Part shown: positions 1 through 28,495 of the stretch, piece after piece
Numbering within the stretch: the stretch's first letter is position 1
Layout: each line of letters opens with the position of its first letter
IMG/VR virus record: IMGVR_UViG_3300012000_000095
Location: 1 to 29,350 of that record
DNA length: 29,350 nt
Source of the DNA: a virus
Strand: one strand, 5' to 3'
The notes under the pieces: model-generated
Told to the model about the DNA's origin: nothing
Database searches by the model: none
The model's input: only the letters and a program-made list of their open reading frames with translations
Program-made: the position numbers and the translations under genes

Positions 1-103
1 TTGCGGCAGGGTGTTTTTCTGCGGAGATAATTTCGCCAACCAAAGTTTTTGAGCGATAAGTTTTTCCTACAAGTAGGCTTTCGATTGTGTATAGGTTTGC
101 CAT
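1..103 (-). CDS. Small hypothetical phage protein, N-terminal part only
   Basis: The gene begins with ATG at 103 and runs off the left edge, leaving 34 codons. The protein begins MANLYTIESLLVGKTYRSKT and continues with a short polar stretch; no catalytic motif is visible. The start is well supported: an AGAAGG ribosome binding site lies about 6 nt upstream, and a damage-type promoter (136-158) would start the mRNA about 25 nt upstream. It is the first gene of the fourth minus-strand operon. I do not recognise a function. Confidence 0.75.
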   Translation of the reverse strand, partial: MANLYTIESLLVGKTYRSKTLVGEIISAEKHPAA

Positions 104-135: not shown

Positions 136-158
136 ATTTTACCAAAGCCCACCGACAT
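136..158 (-). promoter_or_regulatory. Promoter of RecA-NDp/PafBC type (operon 4)
   Basis: Reading the minus strand, ATGTCGGTG is followed by 8 nt and TAAAAT. This matches the LexA-independent mycobacterial damage promoter motif tTGTCRGTG-N8-TAnnnT at every fixed position after the first lower-case t. The predicted transcript starts near 129 and reaches the ATG at 103. There is no TTGACA-like -35 box at 16-18 nt. Use by PafBC is inferred from the motif alone. Confidence 0.65.
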
Positions 159-180: not shown

Positions 181-206
181 TTCCAGATAATGAGACGCTC
201 AAGCGG

Positions 207-239
207 TGTGAGGTTCATCACACGGTGATCAAAATCACA
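207..239. promoter_or_regulatory. Two tandem Crp/GlxR-type boxes
   Basis: Box 1 (207-222) is a perfect TGTGA-N6-TCACA palindrome. Box 2 (224-239) is GGTGA-N6-TCACA. Their centres are 17 bp apart. This is the consensus of the cAMP receptor protein family (Crp of mycobacteria, GlxR of corynebacteria). Box 1 is centred about 76 bp upstream of the centre of the operon-4 -10 element, a distance compatible with class I activation. Confidence 0.6.
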
Positions 240-287
240 AGAATTTTCAAGGTTTTTTTGCGACACGCCGTAATTCGACTTGACAAG

Positions 288-305
288 GCCCGCAAAAGAG
301 GGGGC
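288..305 (-). terminator. Possible terminator of operon 3
   Basis: On the minus strand GCCCCC-TCTTTT-GCGGGC forms an imperfect GC stem (one C:C mismatch) followed by CTT. It resembles the stronger hairpin at 1482-1500 downstream of operon 2, with the same TTTTGCGGGC 3' arm, so the two look like related terminators. The T tract is poor. Confidence 0.3.
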
Positions 306-307
306 AC

Positions 308-321
308 AAATCGGACATTTT
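308..321. repeat. Dispersed element AAATCGGACATTTT, copy 1
   Basis: This 14-bp sequence is identical to the copy at 1346-1359. Variants occur at 2815-2837 (two half copies) and 2897-2910. All lie in control regions of the minus-strand early operons, so it is probably a protein-binding site. The binding protein is unknown. Confidence 0.5.
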
Positions 322-337
322 GCCTCAGCTATGATCC

Positions 338-357
338 GCATGCATTTTTATGCATGC
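338..357. repeat. Inverted repeat GCATGCAT-TTTT-ATGCATGC
   Basis: A perfect 8-bp stem with a 4-nt loop lies 10 bp beyond the stop codon of the 367-549 gene. It may act as a 3' end stabiliser or terminator for operon 3, but no T tract follows on the minus strand. Confidence 0.4.
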
Positions 358-366
358 ATTGCATAT

Positions 367-549
367 CTATGCACGACGTGGAACATTTTTAAAATCTTTT
401 TTAAACTCGTTAAATGTTTCTTCTTGTTGCTCAGGAGTTAAAGTTGCCCAAATATAACCAAGTAAATAAGCATTTCCTGAATCAGAATCGCCACCTCTGA
501 TTGATTTTGACATTGATTTAATTTCTTGAAGTAATTCCATATTTGCCAT
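367..549 (-). CDS. Hypothetical 60-aa protein, last gene of operon 3
   Basis: The protein is 60 aa, polar and mostly helical-looking (start MANMELLQEIKSMSKSIRGG). The segment around residues 37-55 is rich in Glu, Phe and Lys (TPEQQEETFNEFKKDF). It has no Cys, unlike its operon neighbours. The ATG at 549 overlaps the stop of the preceding 34-aa gene (TAATG), and AAAGGAG lies about 9 nt upstream, so the start is secure. It is the last of six tightly coupled genes driven from the promoter at 1303-1325. I do not recognise the family. Confidence 0.8.
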   Translation of the reverse strand: MANMELLQEIKSMSKSIRGGDSDSGNAYLLGYIWATLTPEQQEETFNEFKKDFKNVPRRA

Positions 550-653
550 TAGTTGTAACTCCTTTTACATTCTGAACATAGGTAATTTAATTTGCAATAG
601 CAACCTGCATAAATAGGTTCTGGATTTTCATAGTAGTCGTCATAGTAGTCCAT
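549..653 (-). CDS. Tiny Cys-rich zinc-ribbon-like protein (34 aa)
   Basis: The 34-aa product begins MDYYDDYYENPEP, an acidic, Tyr-rich head. It ends with a C-x-C ... C-x2-C cluster (Cys at about 18, 20, 26 and 29) that could hold one zinc ion. Start and stop are each linked to a neighbour by a TAATG overlap, so it is very likely translated by coupling. No homologous family is recognised. The role is unknown; DNA, RNA or protein binding through zinc would be a guess. Confidence 0.75.
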   Translation of the reverse strand: MDYYDDYYENPEPIYAGCYCKLNYLCSECKRSYN

Positions 654-772
654 TATGCATTTTCCATTTCTGCTAATTCATTCCAGCATAGGTCGCATGA
701 AATTACATCGTCAATTTCAAACTGCGCTGAAGTTACAGGTGTAGCGCAATATTTACAGTTAATTGTTATCAT
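653..772 (-). CDS. Tiny zinc-ribbon protein (39 aa)
   Basis: The 39-aa product starts MITINCKYCATPVT and has two C-x2-C knuckles: C6/C9 near the start and C26/C29 in SCDLCW. This is the classic layout of a minimal zinc ribbon. Its stop overlaps the next start by TAATG, and the upstream gene ends 3 nt before its ATG. Small zinc ribbons are common in actinophage early regions, but the partner and role of this one are not known. Confidence 0.78.
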   Translation of the reverse strand: MITINCKYCATPVTSAQFEIDDVISCDLCWNELAEMENA

Positions 773-775
773 TTA

Positions 776-889
776 TTATCCCCAACATTCTTGACAAGTA
801 GCGGTTAAAATTTTAGCATCTTTAAGAGCAACCTCTACAGTTGGCTTCTCGCAGATTTGACATGAGAGCATTATCATTTGATTAGTCAT
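776..889 (-). CDS. Tiny zinc-ribbon protein (37 aa)
   Basis: The 37-aa product has the same architecture as the 653-772 protein: C-x2-C at about 10-13 (SCQICEKP) and C-x2-C at about 32-35 (TCQECWG, at the very C terminus). The two may be diverged paralogues. The start overlaps the stop of the 889-1071 gene in a TAATG. Function unknown. Confidence 0.78.
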   Translation of the reverse strand: MTNQMIMLSCQICEKPTVEVALKDAKILTATCQECWG

Positions 890-1071
890 TAGTTATCACA
901 CACGCATTTCTCTGCAGAAATATCAAAGTCGCTGCAGAATTCGCAACCTTGAAATAAGAAATGCTCATCACAATAAATTGCATATTGCAATTCATCGCAA
1001 CAAAAAAATGTATTAGTAGAGCGAAGGAATACCTTAGTTAAAGGCATATGAGAAAGAATTAAAGTTGTCAT
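889..1071 (-). CDS. Small Cys-rich protein (60 aa)
   Basis: I take ATG 1071 as the start (MTTLILSHMPL) because it overlaps the preceding stop as TAATG and has GGAGG upstream. A GTG at 1098 would add nine residues inside the upstream gene. Seven or eight Cys cluster in the second half: FFCCDEL, a single Cys, CEFC, and a terminal CVCDN. This could bind one or two metal ions. It belongs to the operon-3 series of Cys-rich proteins; the family is not recognised. Confidence 0.75.
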   Translation of the reverse strand: MTTLILSHMPLTKVFLRSTNTFFCCDELQYAIYCDEHFLFQGCEFCSDFDISAEKCVCDN

Positions 1072-1247
1072 TATTTTGACACCTCCCAATCTGACCACAT
1101 AGATAAGCGGTCTGAATCATAGTCCATATACCATGATTCGATATTCTGCTCACATGATTCGCAGAAAGTGTAGCAAACATCATTGTGAAATGATTTTGCA
1201 ATTTGATTAGGGATATGTGTTTTACACATTGTATTTAGTGAAGTCAT
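1071..1247 (-). CDS. Small Cys/His protein (58 aa), first gene of operon 3
   Basis: The product starts MTSLNTMCKTHIPNQ and carries C-x2-H near residues 8-11, then Cys at about 25, 29 and 32 (CYTFCESC), so a zinc site is plausible. The C-terminal third is acidic and Trp-rich. The ribosome binding site and first codons closely resemble those of the 2456-2671 gene, which also heads an operon and begins MNSLNV. This suggests a duplicated leader. The promoter at 1303-1325 lies about 50 nt upstream of the ATG. Function unknown. Confidence 0.78.
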   Translation of the reverse strand: MTSLNTMCKTHIPNQIAKSFHNDVCYTFCESCEQNIESWYMDYDSDRLSMWSDWEVSK

Positions 1248-1302
1248 TTTGGACTTCCTTTCTTTAAGGGGTTTACTTCTTTTTCAACCTTCTATACCTA
1301 GA

Positions 1303-1325
1303 AGTATAGCAGGGGGGTCTGACAT
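1303..1325 (-). promoter_or_regulatory. Promoter of RecA-NDp/PafBC type (operon 3)
   Basis: The minus strand reads ATGTCAG, then 10 nt including a C6 run, then TATACT. TGTC and the TAnnnT -10 have the same 12-nt spacing as the other three promoters. The GTG part of the motif is degenerate here (GAC). It drives the six-gene operon 1247 to 367. Confidence 0.55.
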
Positions 1326-1339
1326 TTACTGGCGAGTAA
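1326..1339. promoter_or_regulatory. Inverted-repeat operator TTACT-N4-AGTAA, copy 2
   Basis: A perfect 5-bp inverted repeat is immediately adjacent to the TGTC box of the operon-3 promoter; it is the sister of 167-180. The distance to the promoter differs by 8 bp between the two copies. Confidence 0.45.
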
Positions 1340-1345
1340 TGCCAT

Positions 1346-1359
1346 AAATCGGACATTTT
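1346..1359. repeat. Dispersed element AAATCGGACATTTT, copy 2
   Basis: Identical to 308-321. It lies between the Crp-type box (1364-1379) and the TTACT operator, inside the operon-3 control region. Confidence 0.5.
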
Positions 1360-1363
1360 GAAA

Positions 1364-1420
1364 TGTGAATCACATCACATTTATTTTTTACGCTCAAATC
1401 AGAATGTGATTTACATCATG
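1364..1420. promoter_or_regulatory. Crp/GlxR-type boxes upstream of operon 3
   Basis: 1364-1379 is a perfect TGTGA-N6-TCACA palindrome centred about 66 bp upstream of the centre of the operon-3 -10 element. 1405-1420 is TGTGA-N6-TCATG, one half perfect, and its end overlaps a DnaA box. An AT-rich run (1380-1390) separates the two. Confidence 0.6.
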
Positions 1421-1481
1421 TGGATAACTTACGCTCAGAATTCCAGGGTTTTCCACACCTGTGCATAAAGCCTGTGGATAA
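1419..1481. other. Cluster of DnaA boxes; candidate origin or DnaA-titration site
   Basis: There are three exact matches to the DnaA box TTATNCACA on the same strand: TGTGGATAA at 1419-1427, TGTGCATAA at 1460-1468 and TGTGGATAA at 1473-1481. A near match, TTTTCCACA, lies in the opposite orientation at 1449-1457. No other exact boxes were noticed in the window. The cluster sits between the operon-3 control region and the GC hairpin at 1482-1500. It could be a replication origin, or a site for binding or titrating host DnaA. This is inference; no DNA-unwinding element was measured. Confidence 0.55.
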
Positions 1482-1500
1482 GCCCGCAAAAGCTGCGGGC
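1482..1500 (-). terminator. GC-rich hairpin, likely terminator of operon 2
   Basis: A perfect 6-bp stem GCCCGC/GCGGGC with a 7-nt loop is followed on the minus strand by TTAT. A second small hairpin (GGGCG-ACA-CGCCC) overlaps its far side. The word GCGACACGCC beside it also occurs at 260-269 near the operon-3 end. It lies about 50 bp downstream of the last operon-2 stop. Confidence 0.45.
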
Positions 1501-1548
1501 GACACGCCCGACCTCGTGGGGAGATCAGACACGCCGATGGTTATGTAA

Positions 1549-1659
1549 TTAACCTAACCCGTTTTCTTTTATGTCTTTAATTACAAGGCGGAGCATTAGT
1601 AGCGTAGGTATTCCAATACCTACCTGCACCGCTGTAGTTAGTAAGCGATTTATTGTCAT
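1549..1659 (-). CDS. Small membrane protein (36 aa)
   Basis: The 36-aa product has one predicted membrane span at about residues 6-27 (LTTAVQVGIGIPTLLMLRLV) and a charged C-terminal tail (KDIKENGLG). Its ATG directly abuts the stop of the 45-aa membrane protein upstream, so the two single-span proteins are co-translated and might act together. It is the last gene of operon 2. No known family is recognised. Confidence 0.7.
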   Translation of the reverse strand: MTINRLLTTAVQVGIGIPTLLMLRLVIKDIKENGLG

Positions 1660-1797
1660 TTATTTATTCTTCTTTCTCTTATAAATCTTATAAGCAATTA
1701 ACGCAATAACGGCGGGAACAATTACCTGCCATGATAACGCTATATAGCAAACATATGTATCGAATTCTAATCCGTAGTCATTTAATTCTAGTGTCAT
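1660..1797 (-). CDS. Small single-span membrane protein (45 aa)
   Basis: The N terminus is short and acidic (MTLELNDYGLEFD). One hydrophobic span follows at about residues 15-36 (VCYIALSWQVIVPAVIALIA), then a strongly basic end (YKIYKRKKNK). By the positive-inside rule the C terminus should be cytoplasmic. Its start overlaps the upstream stop as TAATG. A membrane-active early protein (superinfection exclusion, lysis control) is one possibility, but nothing in the sequence proves it. Confidence 0.72.
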   Translation of the reverse strand: MTLELNDYGLEFDTYVCYIALSWQVIVPAVIALIAYKIYKRKKNK

Positions 1798-1976
1798 TAG
1801 TTAAACATCTCTCCAATCATGTCTAGTTGCTCATCTGTAAGATGGTCAATTTCAATAGCCTTAGAGAAACCGAAAACATCTTCGTCTTCATGCGTTTCCT
1901 CTTGTGCTAATTCTTCATCTAGCCAAACATATGCATCCGCAACATCTGCCTGAATTGTATCCCATTTACTCATCAT
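1797..1976 (-). CDS. Acidic hypothetical protein (59 aa)
   Basis: The 59-aa product is strongly acidic, with a run of Glu/Asp around residues 20-34 (DEELAQEETHEDEDVFGF), and looks largely helical. Two ATGs start the frame (1976 and 1973); the first overlaps the upstream stop as TAATG and is preferred. Small acidic phage proteins sometimes mimic DNA or inhibit host DNA-binding proteins. That is only a possibility here; the family is not recognised. Confidence 0.75.
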   Translation of the reverse strand: MMSKWDTIQADVADAYVWLDEELAQEETHEDEDVFGFSKAIEIDHLTDEQLDMIGEMFN

Positions 1977-2104
1977 TAGTTATTCTCCTCTATGTTAAAG
2001 TTATCGGTTAGTTTTTTATTAGCCTTAGTTAATGTGGCTATGGCTTGCTCTAGGCTAGCCTTGCGTTGCGCCTCTACATGCGCCTTATATTCTTCTAGAT
2101 TCAT
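1976..2104 (-). CDS. Small coiled-coil-like protein (42 aa), first gene of operon 2
   Basis: The 42-aa product is a charged, Ala/Glu/Lys-rich helix, probably a short coiled coil (MNLEEYKAHVEAQRKASLEQ and onward). The start at 2104 has AAAGGA about 8 nt upstream and lies about 25 nt from the predicted start of the 2136-2158 promoter. It overlaps the next gene by TAATG. The function is not recognised. Confidence 0.75.
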   Translation of the reverse strand: MNLEEYKAHVEAQRKASLEQAIATLTKANKKLTDNFNIEENN

Positions 2105-2135
2105 TTAGTTTTCCTTTCGTTTTCTTTATGGTGTA

Positions 2136-2158
2136 AGCCTACCATAGCCTACTGACAT
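2136..2158 (-). promoter_or_regulatory. Promoter of RecA-NDp/PafBC type (operon 2)
   Basis: The minus strand reads ATGTCAGTA-N8-TAGGCT, matching tTGTCRGTG-N8-TAnnnT except for the last G of the first half. Spacing is identical to the other three early promoters. It drives four genes (2104 to 1549). Confidence 0.55.
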
Positions 2159-2160
2159 TA

Positions 2161-2177
2161 CCTAGCATAGGGCTAGG
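2161..2177. promoter_or_regulatory. Inverted repeat CCTAGC-N5-GCTAGG
   Basis: A perfect 6-bp inverted repeat lies directly upstream of the operon-2 TGTC box, where operons 3 and 4 have the TTACT-N4-AGTAA element. It could be an operator, or a weak terminator for operon 1 (no T tract). Confidence 0.4.
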
Positions 2178-2185
2178 TGTGTCGG

Positions 2186-2201
2186 TGTGAGTTGCCTCAC
2201 A
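2186..2201. promoter_or_regulatory. Crp/GlxR-type box upstream of operon 2
   Basis: A perfect TGTGA-N6-TCACA palindrome. Its last five bases include the stop codon of the 2197-2454 gene. The centre is about 55 bp from the centre of the operon-2 -10 element. Confidence 0.6.
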
Positions 2202-2454
2202 TATTGCAAGCGACATGTTCGCTATGTGTGCCGTCTAAGTAGTGACCCTTAGCGATACAATTCTTAGCTGTCTCATGGAAGAGACGGCATCTCATCTCAT
2301 GGTAAGAGATGTAGTCTTTATGAACTACCTTATCGCAGGTAGTGCAGAAGTGCCACTTATGGTTATCTTTCTTTACTACCTTACCATCTACTACATCGTA
2401 GCGGTCAATAAACTTAGCACTATGTGTGCAATTATTAGCAAGACACTTATTCAT
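2197..2454 (-). CDS. Zinc-finger-like protein (85 aa)
   Basis: The product starts MNKCLANNCTHSAKF. It has a first Cys pair (C4, C9) and a second region FCTTCDKVVHKDYISYHEMRC in which C-x2-C is followed by two His and a Cys, resembling a treble-clef or C2HC finger. More His and Cys follow near the C terminus (ETAKNCIAKGH). ATG 2454 is 1 nt after the preceding stop and has AGGTAGG upstream; a GTG at 2463 is a weaker alternative. Probably nucleic-acid or protein binding; no named family recognised. Confidence 0.75.
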   Translation of the reverse strand: MNKCLANNCTHSAKFIDRYDVVDGKVVKKDNHKWHFCTTCDKVVHKDYISYHEMRCRLFHETAKNCIAKGHYLDGTHSEHVACNM

Positions 2455-2455
2455 A

Positions 2456-2671
2456 TTAAGCACCTACCTTATTAGCGAATACCCACTTACTCTCATTAGG
2501 TGAGAGGTAGCGGTGAGATAGTAAGCCTTTATCGGCTACCATATAGACATATGCCATACGGCTAATGTAGTTACCATTAGCAAGGCGGAAGATATTGTTA
2601 TCTTTAGTATTACTAGAAGACATTGGATGAGTAGGTTCTACTACTACTGATATTACATTTAGTGAGTTCAT
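2456..2671 (-). CDS. Hypothetical protein (71 aa), first gene of operon 1
   Basis: The 71-aa product starts MNSLNVISVVVEP. It has a Ser-rich linker (MSSSNTKDN) and then a Tyr/Arg-rich segment ending SKWVFANKVGA. There is no Cys. The ribosome binding site AAAGGAG is well placed. Start region and first codons resemble those of 1071-1247, the head of operon 3. It sits about 100 nt downstream of the predicted transcript start, after a leader that carries a tandem repeat. Function not recognised. Confidence 0.75.
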   Translation of the reverse strand: MNSLNVISVVVEPTHPMSSSNTKDNNIFRLANGNYISRMAYVYMVADKGLLSHRYLSPNESKWVFANKVGA

Positions 2672-2707
2672 TTGGAACTCCTTTCTTTTTAGATAAACTT
2701 AGGTAAT

Positions 2708-2748
2708 TTATTTGCTAGGCTCACCTTTCGGATTATTTGCTAGGCTCA
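2708..2748 (-). repeat. Tandem 16-bp repeat in the operon-1 leader
   Basis: TTATTTGCTAGGCTCA occurs twice (2708-2723 and 2733-2748), 25 bp apart, between the operon-1 promoter and its first gene. A 13-codon frame starting at 2749, with AAAGG upstream, spans both copies (MSLANNPKGEPSK). The repeat may be an RNA or DNA binding site. Confidence 0.55.
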
Positions 2749-2779
2749 TTTACCTTTATTTAATTTTTCTTATACTATA

Positions 2780-2802
2780 ATCATATACCTACCCACTGAC
2801 AA
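2780..2802 (-). promoter_or_regulatory. Promoter of RecA-NDp/PafBC type (operon 1)
   Basis: The minus strand reads TTGTCAGTG-N8-TATGAT, a full match to tTGTCRGTG-N8-TAnnnT. An alternative sigma-70 reading is TTGTCA, 17 nt, then TATAGT (2774-2779). It drives 2671 to 2197. Confidence 0.65.
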
Positions 2803-2814
2803 ATATCAAGTCGC

Positions 2815-2837
2815 AAATCGGACATGTCGGACAATTT
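2815..2837. repeat. Double CGGACA element
   Basis: AAATCGGACA is followed directly by TGTCGGACAATTT, giving two overlapping copies of the element at 308-321 and 1346-1359. It lies between the operon-1 promoter and its Crp-type box. Confidence 0.45.
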
Positions 2838-2849
2838 GAAAAAAAAGTC

Positions 2850-2865
2850 TGTGAGTTAGGTCACA
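2850..2865. promoter_or_regulatory. Crp/GlxR-type box upstream of operon 1
   Basis: A perfect TGTGA-N6-TCACA palindrome, centred about 75 bp upstream of the centre of the operon-1 TATGAT -10 element. Confidence 0.6.
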
Positions 2866-2896: not shown

Positions 2897-2910
2897 AAAA
2901 CGGACATTTA
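2897..2910. repeat. Variant CGGACATTT element
   Basis: AAAACGGACATTTA matches the dispersed element with two changes. It is the most distal copy of the operon-1 control region. Confidence 0.35.
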
Positions 2911-6577: not shown

Positions 6578-6829
6578 TTATGCTACGTATAGGATTGAAA
6601 TTGTTGCCGCAGAAGTAGAAAAAGCATATATATTATTATCTAGCGTTCCAATATGAACAGATGATAAAGGAGATAATGCAACTCCATAACTAGATGCTGT
6701 TACGTAAGGATCTCCAAAATATACTGTTGCGGTTGAAGATGTATTTGTAACTGTAAGTTGTCCAGGATTTGCCGCAACAAATGTGACGGTATTCGCAGGA
6801 ACTGAAATATTAGCATGATTTACTGACAT
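6578..6829 (-). CDS. Small beta-rich protein, probably a virion decoration or tail component
   Basis: The 83-aa product is rich in Ala, Ser, Thr and Val with no charged core (starts MSVNHANISVPANTVTFVAA). The pattern NPGQLTVTNTSSTATVYFGD ... LSPLSSVHIG ... YAFSTSAATISILYVA resembles short phage beta-sandwich proteins that bind capsid or tail. It has its own leaderless promoter. A structural role is inferred from composition only; no family is identified. It shares no operon with other structural genes, which is unusual. Confidence 0.6.
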   Translation of the reverse strand: MSVNHANISVPANTVTFVAANPGQLTVTNTSSTATVYFGDPYVTASSYGVALSPLSSVHIGTLDNNIYAFSTSAATISILYVA

Positions 6830-8495: not shown

Positions 8496-8528
8496 TGGCA
8501 TTTCCTCCTTTAGAGATAACGAACTATA

Positions 8529-8558
8529 ATAGTAGCATTACTTGACAGTAGGTGTCAA
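8529..8558 (-). promoter_or_regulatory. Promoter of the lytic enzyme operon
   Basis: On the minus strand: exact TTGACA (8558-8553), 18 nt, TACTAT (8534-8529). A second -10-like TATAGT lies at 8523-8528. The -35 is one arm of the inverted repeat 8541-8559. Confidence 0.6.
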
Positions 8559-26579: not shown

Positions 26580-26918
26580 ATGAATATTAAAAATGTCCGA
26601 CAGACAGAGGTAGAAGAGTCTACTTTGGGAATCTATGTCTGGGAAATGCCAGATGGACGTTGGATTGGGGATGACGATGGGAACTTTCTTTCGGTCACGT
26701 CCAGAAAAGGAAATAGATCCAGAATCGATGCTTTGGCTAGAGAAGTTCGCTCATTTGGTATATATGAGGGCGGGCCTAAATTTCTTTCAGCACGACGAAA
26801 GATTAACGACGAAGAATACGAAGAGCAGCAACAAAGACTTAAGTGGGGACTAGTTCCAGATCCTTTGGATATTGGAAGCTATAAAGATGAAATGAAAAAA
26901 TTGGGTGGTTTAAGATGA
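26580..26918 (+). CDS. Conserved-type small protein preceding the portal (112 aa)
   Basis: The 112-aa product is highly charged: YVWEMPDGRWIGDDDGNFLS, then RIDALAREVRSFGIYEGGPK and SARRKINDEEYEEQQQRLKW, ending GLVPDPLDIGSYKDEMKKLG. Similar short proteins lie directly upstream of portal genes in other actinophages as I remember them, without an assigned role; a head-assembly or packaging factor is a fair guess. It overlaps the portal gene by 4 nt (ATGA), indicating coupled translation. Confidence 0.75.
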   Translation: MNIKNVRQTEVEESTLGIYVWEMPDGRWIGDDDGNFLSVTSRKGNRSRIDALAREVRSFGIYEGGPKFLSARRKINDEEYEEQQQRLKWGLVPDPLDIGSYKDEMKKLGGLR

Positions 26919-28495
26919 TTGAAATTGAAGACGAAAATTCTAACGAGATTGCTATCTCTAATGTAGCCGACTGGATGAAATTTAATACCCCAACACAAGC
27001 TACAAGCACTGATTTGTTTAAAATTGAAGGCGAAGAATTAACAAAGATTTCTGGTCTAGGACCATCATTTAGAAGAAAAATGAATCGTGAACTTCAAAAA
27101 AGATTTCAAGGAGTTGACGGTACACAGACACAACAGAACCTACTTGCACAAGCCATCACAGGCTATGCAATGTTTGATCTTATTGAACCACCATACAATT
27201 TAGATTATCTTTCAACTGTTTATGAAATTTCACCATACAATTATGCAGCAATTAATGCTAAGGTTTCTAACATTGTAGGTCTTGGACATGACTTTATTGA
27301 AACAAGAAAAACTCAAGAAGCCTTTGATAATATTACTGATGAAAAGTCTTTAGAAAGAGCACGTAGAAAACTAAATAGACTTCGTCAAGATCTATATGAT
27401 TGGCTAGAAGATTGTAATGAAGAAGAAACATTTACAGAAACTTTAATCAAAGTATATACAGATGTTGAAGCAACTGGTAATGGCTATATTGAAATTGGTA
27501 GAACATCTTCTGGAAAAATAGGATATATAGGACATATTCCAGCAAAGACTATGCGTGTACGCAGACTTCGTGATGGCTTCATTCAATTGCTTTATGGCAA
27601 GGCTGTATTCTTCCGCAATTTTGGAGATCAAGATACAGAGAATCCAATTGCAGGCGGACTAGATAGACCTAATGAAATTATTCATTTAAAGAAATATACA
27701 CCAACAAATAACTATTATGGTATTCCAGACATTGTGGCTTCATCAAATGCTATGGCTGGAAACGAGTTTGCTGGCAAGTATAACTTGGACTACTTTGAAA
27801 ACAAGGCTGTCCCAAGATATATTATTACCGTAAAGGGAGCAAAACTTTCTCCAGAGTCAGAGCGTAAGCTACTTGAATTTTTCCAGGTTGGGCTAAGAGG
27901 CAAAAACCATAGATCTTTATATATCCCTCTTCCAGCAGATACTCCAGACGCTAAGGTTGAATTTAAGATGGAGCCAGTTGAGGCGGGTACTCAAGAGTCT
28001 TCATTTAACGTATATCGTAAATCTAATAGAGATGAAATTCTATTATCTCATCGTGTTCCAATTAATAAAATTGGAACTCCAGAAGGAGTTAATTTAGCAG
28101 TAGCACGAGATGCCGATAAGACATTTAGAGAGCAAGTTTGCCGTCCAGCTCAAATGAATTTAGAAAAGAAATTAAATAAAATTGTTGAAGAAATGACAGA
28201 TGCTCTACTTCTTAAATTTAATGAGCTTACTCTTACCGATGAAGATACTCAGTCTAAAATTGATGAGAGATATTTGAGAATGCAGGTAATTACCCCTAAT
28301 GAAGTTAGAATTAGAATGGGCATGGTTCCTCTTGATGGCGGGGATCAAGTAGTACAATTAAAGCCACAGCAACAGGCAGAAGTTAGAGCACAGGCTGGAA
28401 AAACTAGAAATAGAGATTCCGAAAGGTCTGCAAATTCACCCGATATTTCTGGAGAAGGTCGAAATACTCAGGGAGATGGAAGACAAGTCGACTGA
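26915..28495 (+). CDS. Phage portal protein
   Basis: The 526-aa product has the layout of HK97/PBSX-type portals: VYEISPYNYAAINAKVSNIV in the wing region, then DVEATGNGYIEIGR, HIPAKTMRVRRLRDGF and the family-typical EIIHLKKYTPTNNYYGIPDI, followed by SNAMAGNEFAGKYNLDYFEN. The clip/stem and C-terminal crown region ends in a charged, disordered tail (KTRNRDSERSANSPD). Twelve copies form the ring through which DNA is packaged and released. The adjacent prohead protease supports the call. No terminase gene precedes it in this window. Confidence 0.88.
   Translation: MIEIEDENSNEIAISNVADWMKFNTPTQATSTDLFKIEGEELTKISGLGPSFRRKMNRELQKRFQGVDGTQTQQNLLAQAITGYAMFDLIEPPYNLDYLSTVYEISPYNYAAINAKVSNIVGLGHDFIETRKTQEAFDNITDEKSLERARRKLNRLRQDLYDWLEDCNEEETFTETLIKVYTDVEATGNGYIEIGRTSSGKIGYIGHIPAKTMRVRRLRDGFIQLLYGKAVFFRNFGDQDTENPIAGGLDRPNEIIHLKKYTPTNNYYGIPDIVASSNAMAGNEFAGKYNLDYFENKAVPRYIITVKGAKLSPESERKLLEFFQVGLRGKNHRSLYIPLPADTPDAKVEFKMEPVEAGTQESSFNVYRKSNRDEILLSHRVPINKIGTPEGVNLAVARDADKTFREQVCRPAQMNLEKKLNKIVEEMTDALLLKFNELTLTDEDTQSKIDERYLRMQVITPNEVRIRMGMVPLDGGDQVVQLKPQQQAEVRAQAGKTRNRDSERSANSPDISGEGRNTQGDGRQVD

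Follow-up and report, generated by a model that had tools for sequence, protein, structure and literature searches.

The DNA analysed here, called the window in what follows, is a linear virus record of 29,350 bases with 37% guanine plus cytosine (GC) content (IMG/VR record IMGVR_UViG_3300012000_000095, positions 1 to 29,350). It carries four perfect TGTGA-N6-TCACA palindromes (boxes), which match the consensus site of the regulator Crp (PMC4117774; PMC4005916), each placed upstream of a TGTC-N12-TAnnnT promoter at the head of a leftward series of small, presumably early genes. In related phages, boxes of this kind are locked to their promoters at distances differing by about one turn of the DNA helix. 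Class I-type activation by the Crp/GlxR protein of the host, acting at PafBC-type early promoters of the phage, is regarded as the probable explanation (probability about 0.6), which suggests that these phages may recruit a host activator to turn on their first genes.

An exact pattern search returned the four perfect boxes and no other in the window, all confined to the leftward small-gene arm, and TGTC-N12-TAnnnT was found downstream of each of them, in agreement with an earlier note on this DNA. The distances from box centre to minus-10 centre, which that note had put at about 76, 66, 55 and 75 base pairs (bp), were recomputed as 76.0, 66.0, 55.0 and 75.0 bp for boxes 1 to 4. The boxes, promoters and first genes are listed below, the gap being the distance from box to TGTC; first genes 2 to 4 were taken from the list of open reading frames.

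207–222, minus strand: box 1, Crp/GlxR-type, TGTGATGAACCTCACA, exact match, gap 49 bp
136–157, minus strand: promoter 1, TGTCGGTGGGCTTTGGTAAAAT, pattern match
1–103, minus strand: first gene of operon 1, MANLYTIESLLVGK..., leaving the window at its left end; ortholog family of 32 promoters
1364–1379, minus strand: box 2, Crp/GlxR-type, TGTGATGTGATTCACA, exact match, gap 39 bp
1303–1324, minus strand: promoter 2, TGTCAGACCCCCCTGCTATACT, pattern match
1071–1247, minus strand: first gene of operon 2, 58 amino acids; ortholog family of 16 promoters
2186–2201, minus strand: box 3, Crp/GlxR-type, TGTGAGGCAACTCACA, exact match, gap 28 bp
2136–2157, minus strand: promoter 3, TGTCAGTAGGCTATGGTAGGCT, pattern match
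1976–2104, minus strand: first gene of operon 3, MNLEEYKAHVEAQRKASLEQ..., 42 amino acids; ortholog family of 18 promoters
2850–2865, minus strand: box 4, Crp/GlxR-type, TGTGACCTAACTCACA, exact match, gap 48 bp
2780–2801, minus strand: promoter 4, TGTCAGTGGGTAGGTATATGAT, full TGTCRGTG-N8-TAnnnT
2456–2671, minus strand: first gene of operon 4, 71 amino acids; orthologs in loci L128 and L134 with gap 38 bp
224–239, unstranded: weak box, one mismatch, 66 bp upstream of promoter 1
1405–1420, unstranded: weak box, two mismatches, 41 bp from box 2

Chance and base composition were ruled out as the source of the boxes by three sets of controls. Dinucleotide shuffles of the window contained on average 0.06 perfect boxes and never more than one, against the four found. 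A scan of the whole of IMG/VR for the composite pattern box + N30–60 + TGTCRG-N10-TAnnnT gave more than 119 matches, compared with nine for the version with an inverted box (TCACA-N6-TGTGA). Finally, in 22 IMG/VR records picked by portal protein alone, so as to escape selection by the motif, 48 boxes were present in nine records, and the reversed-pattern control found none. The two weaker sites already pointed out in the earlier note are present, yet boxes with up to two mismatches are not enriched across the window (17 found, 18.2 expected), so that only perfect boxes, or imperfect ones at phased positions, are informative.

A search for the palindrome in relatives, with a test of its enrichment upstream of promoters, had been proposed beforehand; once run, it showed boxes coupled to TGTC promoters far beyond chance. 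Across the fetched stretches, window included, a promoter lies 18–49 bp downstream of 39 of 49 boxes, and among 92 promoters in the early regions of relatives a perfect box precedes 39, a one-mismatch box 16 and a two-mismatch box six. Of the 22 imperfect boxes, 21 stand at phased gaps matching those of perfect boxes. The initial claim that every early operon has such a box thus describes the window, where it applies to 4/4 promoters, and overstates the case for the relatives, in which 31 of the 92 promoters are boxless. In a near-complete relative (G021; about 109 kilobases (kb) once a repeated end of 3,269 bp is removed), all 11 boxes, eight of them distinct, and 23 of 24 promoters fall within one contiguous region running across the ends, the boxes spanning about 7.5 kb of it and the promoters 12 kb.

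The gaps between box and promoter cluster at 18, 28, 38, 48–49 and 59 bp and, apart from a class at 32–34 bp, the intervals between these values are almost empty. The peaks at 18 and 28 bp cannot be a product of scan selection, since both lie outside the scanned N30–60 range. Since related phages do not count as independent cases, each promoter was assigned to a family by the first protein encoded downstream of it, yielding 72 gene-family-by-spacing states, for which the best period was 10.3 bp, equalled in none of 5,000 permutations; the steps of about one helical turn noticed originally in the window therefore recur in its relatives. Orthologous genes switch between spacings one helical turn apart: the family of the first gene of operon 3 takes gaps of 27–28, 38–40 and 48–49 bp, and another family gaps of 18, 28, 37–38 and 49 bp. 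Collection-wide, in-phase gaps of 46–51 bp occur in more than 119 stretches, against 24 stretches for out-of-phase gaps of 41–46 bp and 26 for gaps of 21–26 bp, many at the edges of these six-base gap ranges. The four window distances alone make phasing only suggestive; the relatives make it decisive. Such a pattern would be expected if the box-bound protein must face the polymerase. It is hardly credible that it stems from chance, a compositional artefact or the copying of a single ancestral cassette, spacing included: there is partial homology among promoter families and modules are common to the spacers, but the controls lie far lower, orthologs differ by whole turns in their spacing, and the permutations never reached the observed periodicity.

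On the raw data, a plain half-turn period of 5.1 bp scored highest; it was dropped because gaps near 23 and 43 bp are nearly empty and because the 32–34 class always comes with an extra module. The motif TGTCCG/T or GACACGCC/GC stands between box and promoter in 32 of 32 cases with gaps of 32–34 bp (16 each), compared with just 3/67 at gaps of 27–29 bp. Counted by gene family, the extra motif is found in 19/19 at gaps of 32–34 bp, whereas near gap 28 three families have it and 18 do not. The exception to the phasing thus has a correlate in the sequence, and the spacers are not mere filler. The modules recognised in the window are the following.

167–180, unstranded: palindromic 14-bp spacer module TTACTnGCnAGTAA, at promoter 1
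1326–1339, unstranded: palindromic 14-bp spacer module TTACTnGCnAGTAA, at promoter 2
191–201, minus strand: spacer module TGAGCGTCTCA, offset 43–44 bp before TGTC
1346–1355, minus strand: spacer module TGTCCGATTT, in the interval separating box 2 from promoter 2, 31 bp ahead of TGTC
2815–2824, minus strand: spacer module TGTCCGATTT, in the interval separating box 4 from promoter 4, 23 bp ahead of TGTC
308–317, 1346–1355, 2815–2824 and 2897–2906, minus strand: repeated TGTCCG[A/T]TTT
262–269, 1501–1508 and 1528–1535: GACACGCC

Each module keeps to characteristic positions. GACACGCC lies 25 bp before TGTC nearly always, regardless of the box, with 53 unique cases 25–26 bp ahead of a TGTC promoter and 370 occurrences in early-region loci (L085–L164), against nine for a scrambled control string. 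TGTCCG is found mostly 31–33 or 23 bp before TGTC, and its longer form TGTCCG[A/T]TTT occupies the same offsets (23 or 31–33 bp) in relatives, sometimes abutting the Crp box. The 48–49 bp gap class is characterised by TTACTnGCnAGTAA at 22–23 bp together with TGAGCGTCTCA at 43–44 bp before TGTC; with about 30 cases just upstream of the minus-26 element, the TTACTnGCnAGTAA palindrome looks like the site of another regulator.

The core promoters were compared through a consensus built from one sequence per family and spacing, (A/T)(A/T)(A/T)TGTC(A/g)G(T/A)(C/G)(C/G)...TGcTAtAaT. Ordinary sigma-A promoters with minus-35 and minus-10 elements were ruled out, as the consensus has no minus-35 signal (positions −8 to −5 relative to TGTC carry no more than 0.26 bit per base). 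With TGTCRG(tg) and a TAnnnT placed 12 bp after TGTC, it agrees with the LexA-independent damage promoter consensus tTGTCRgtg-8nt-TannnT (PMC5656591), and the cores are therefore assigned to the PafBC (RecA-NDp) type. PafBC, which is activated by single-stranded DNA (ssDNA), binds the minus-26 motif and sits between sigma-A domain 4 and the DNA, this use of the polymerase being termed sigma adaptation (PMC11804915). The HTH_PafC domain was detected in 34 of 38 small actinobacterial genomes, and in 21 small actinobacterial genomes regarded as candidate hosts (plausible, not proven), TTGTCAGTG-N8-TAnnnT precedes a recognisable RecA-like start in seven. The pairing of box and damage-type promoter proposed in the earlier note accordingly stands as far as helical coupling in dozens of related phages is concerned; its host-protein part is a prediction from sequence.

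Taken together, these features are consistent with a mechanism in which a host Crp/GlxR dimer would sit on the four boxes upstream of the core promoter, always on the same side of the helix, and touch RNA polymerase, most likely through the alpha C-terminal domains, thereby raising transcription of the leftward early operons. The core promoters, which combine a minus-26 TGTCRG and an extended minus-10 with no minus-35, would be used through PafBC sigma adaptation, so that the early promoters would unite a resident host activator with the damage- or ssDNA-responsive PafBC. An additional factor binding the modules may act at some promoters.

As to what reads the box, a GlxR/Crp ortholog with the recognition helix GASRETVNKAL is encoded in 21/21 candidate genomes, and a Crp-type helix-turn-helix (HTH) domain in 394 of 395 sampled relatives of the same class. 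A phage-encoded Crp was rejected after no HTH_Crp domain was found in 13 phage records. Given the consensus box, the presence of Crp in the candidate genomes and its absence from the phages, host Crp/GlxR would be the most economical reader. The further proposal that the phage senses the cyclic AMP (cAMP) status of its host through this protein found no support: class III adenylate cyclase (PF00211) was found in 0/21 candidate genomes, none a proven host, the Corynebacterium glutamicum control being positive, and the Mycobacterium tuberculosis Crp binds DNA without cAMP, which has only an approximately 2-fold effect (PMC4005916).

Several observations weigh against activation by host Crp/GlxR. 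One third of the promoters in relatives (31/92) do without a box, and half-turn spacing does exist, though always with an extra motif. The box being symmetric, the direction of its action follows from the phasing alone. Perfect boxes total only three in the 21 candidate genomes (0 or 1 each), and those with at most one mismatch number 108 in eight of these genomes against 109 in the control; an extensive host regulon built on this box, which was also considered, is thus not visible there.

This lack of enrichment in candidate host genomes would suit another explanation, unlikely but to be taken seriously, in which the box serves as operator for a phage regulator unrelated to Crp, either an activator or a repressor that shuts off the early genes. 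For most early genes no family can be recognised, and the other modules repeated at fixed offsets imply that at least one further DNA-binding protein is probably involved. Set against this, the box matches the classic Crp consensus, all 21 candidate genomes keep the GlxR-type recognition helix, a Crp-type domain is absent from all 13 phage records, and the earliest transcribed genes require a factor that the cell already contains.

Crp/GlxR proteins are known to act in both directions (PMC4117774), and a box may stand at a half-turn position when another motif is present; repression or fine-tuning by box-bound Crp, for instance through DNA bending or contact with PafBC-bound polymerase, was therefore weighed as well. 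It appears improbable, because the nearest box edge lies 18–59 bp before TGTC, beyond simple occlusion, and strict one-turn phasing across several turns is a hallmark of class I activation. Still less plausible is the notion that the boxes are decoys that draw host Crp off its native targets, with the promoter association secondary. Up to eight distinct perfect boxes per phage, compared with none or one per candidate genome (n = 21), would fit such a role, yet a promoter and a helical phase would be superfluous for decoys, and 39 of the 49 boxes have both. The 21 small genomes themselves, with a single GlxR/Crp ortholog, no class III cyclase and hardly any canonical boxes, give the picture of an orphan Crp.

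A broader scheme can be tentatively put forward. The early promoters may follow a modular grammar made up of the host Crp/GlxR dimer, a minus-26 element of PafBC type and four or more further modules (TGTCCG, GACACGCC, TTACTnGCnAGTAA and TGAGCGTCTCA), in which a second activator at TGTCCG or GACACGCC would let Crp act from the opposite helix face (gap 32–34 bp), so that a single sigma-adapted polymerase would bring multiple host signals to bear on the early genes. This scheme is possible rather than probable.

The phage belongs near the Stanwilliamsviridae, which infect Streptomyces. Its portal protein (26915–28495) shares up to 58% identity with theirs, and transglycosylase (minus strand), glycosyltransferase (plus strand) and ribonucleotide reductase (plus strand) follow one another as in Karimac, which likewise has leftward small genes at its left end, as have Peebs and Tomas; the portal similarity and gene order are those of a group represented by Karimac, Peebs, Tomas and BillNye. 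Given this shared order, the four boxes lie in the counterpart of the Karimac left arm, and the early character of the window arm is suggested by its position and layout. Of 25 long contigs retrieved solely through the motif, 22 carry a related portal, 48–95% identical. Unlike the window, the scanned arms of the isolated Streptomyces phages Karimac, Peebs, Tomas and BillNye hold neither a perfect box nor a box-coupled promoter, and no perfect box was found in the scanned arm of Rhodococcus phage Peregrin; the same system in isolated relatives from these two hosts was accordingly discarded for the arms scanned. In the portal tree, the box phages stand beside the Streptomyces members, and a single origin is allowed, not proven (support 62/6). 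Portal-flanking loci taken alone contain no boxes, and such loci stop short of the early arm. Many of the relatives presumably come from freshwater samples, which, together with the low GC content, makes a low-GC freshwater actinobacterium the likely host.

Some further observations concern individual sites. The core of promoter 1 recurs in a relative (G001), also with a box 49 bp upstream, and a near-identical sequence, TTGTCAGTGGGCTTTGGTAAAAT, is found in a small actinobacterial genome (G219, locus L284, 825224–825246), where no clear gene and no Rfam RNA lie downstream. In the window, TGTC-N12-TAnnnT also occurs at 6807–6828 and 8526–8547, outside the early arm and without a box. Adjoining box 2, positions 1416–1483 hold two DnaA-box-like TGTGGATAA, one TGTGCATAA and one TTTTCCACA, and this region is a possible replication origin. 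The four operons consist of series of very small genes whose families are not recognisable, and an Rfam search returned three transfer RNAs only. The near-complete relative (L449–L454) encodes RecA, pyrimidine-dimer glycosylase and solute-binding-protein domains among others; its Pfam scan covered 101 proteins, with the first 25 of 49 families listed, and other regulators may have escaped it.

No comparable phase-locked host-activator box on phage early promoters was found in the open-access literature searched, which lacks most subscription journals. Such a box on most early-region promoters, kept down to about 50% portal identity, seems undescribed. These promoters exist in dozens of natural variants, which provide a sequence-only readout of selection for helical phase, hint at how abundant uncultured freshwater actinophages may begin infection, and yield the testable claim that Crp/GlxR and PafBC are able to act on one polymerase.

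Among known systems, the arrangement resembles class I Crp promoters (the E. coli lac type, and those of Mycobacterium CRP and Corynebacterium GlxR) in its upstream TGTGA-N6-TCACA and whole-turn steps, and contact with the alpha C-terminal domain is likewise presumed for the phage boxes. From an assumed start, their centres fall at about −54, −64, −74 and −84, 2–3 bp off the E. coli positions. Unlike class I promoters, the phage core has a PafBC-type minus-26 and no minus-35, the sites lie in a phage early region, and cAMP dependence is unsupported. With PafBC-dependent (RecA-NDp/P1) actinobacterial promoters the phage cores share TGTCRG(tg) 12 bp before TAnnnT and the lack of a minus-35, and the same motif precedes recA in candidate small genomes; they differ in favouring TGTCAGTCC/ACC and the extended minus-10 TGcTAtAaT, and a Crp-type box stands upstream of most of them, whereas the recA promoters sampled from candidate hosts have none. 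A scan of a genome collection for box plus promoter returned mostly Nocardia dnaX, together with one contig (L236) that resembles a phage and was placed in a Flavobacteriia bin. At dnaX (recognised by protein start; loci L229–L246, about ten species), a perfect Crp-type box stands 30, 41, 44 or 50–55 bp before TGTCRGTG-N8-TAnnnT in 11 of 18 genome matches. In contrast to the phages, this is one locus in a high-GC host, its gaps vary more and are shifted relative to those of the phages, and its box may serve a divergent gene; even so, Nocardia dnaX offers a possible cellular precedent for the pairing of a Crp-type box with a PafBC-type promoter.

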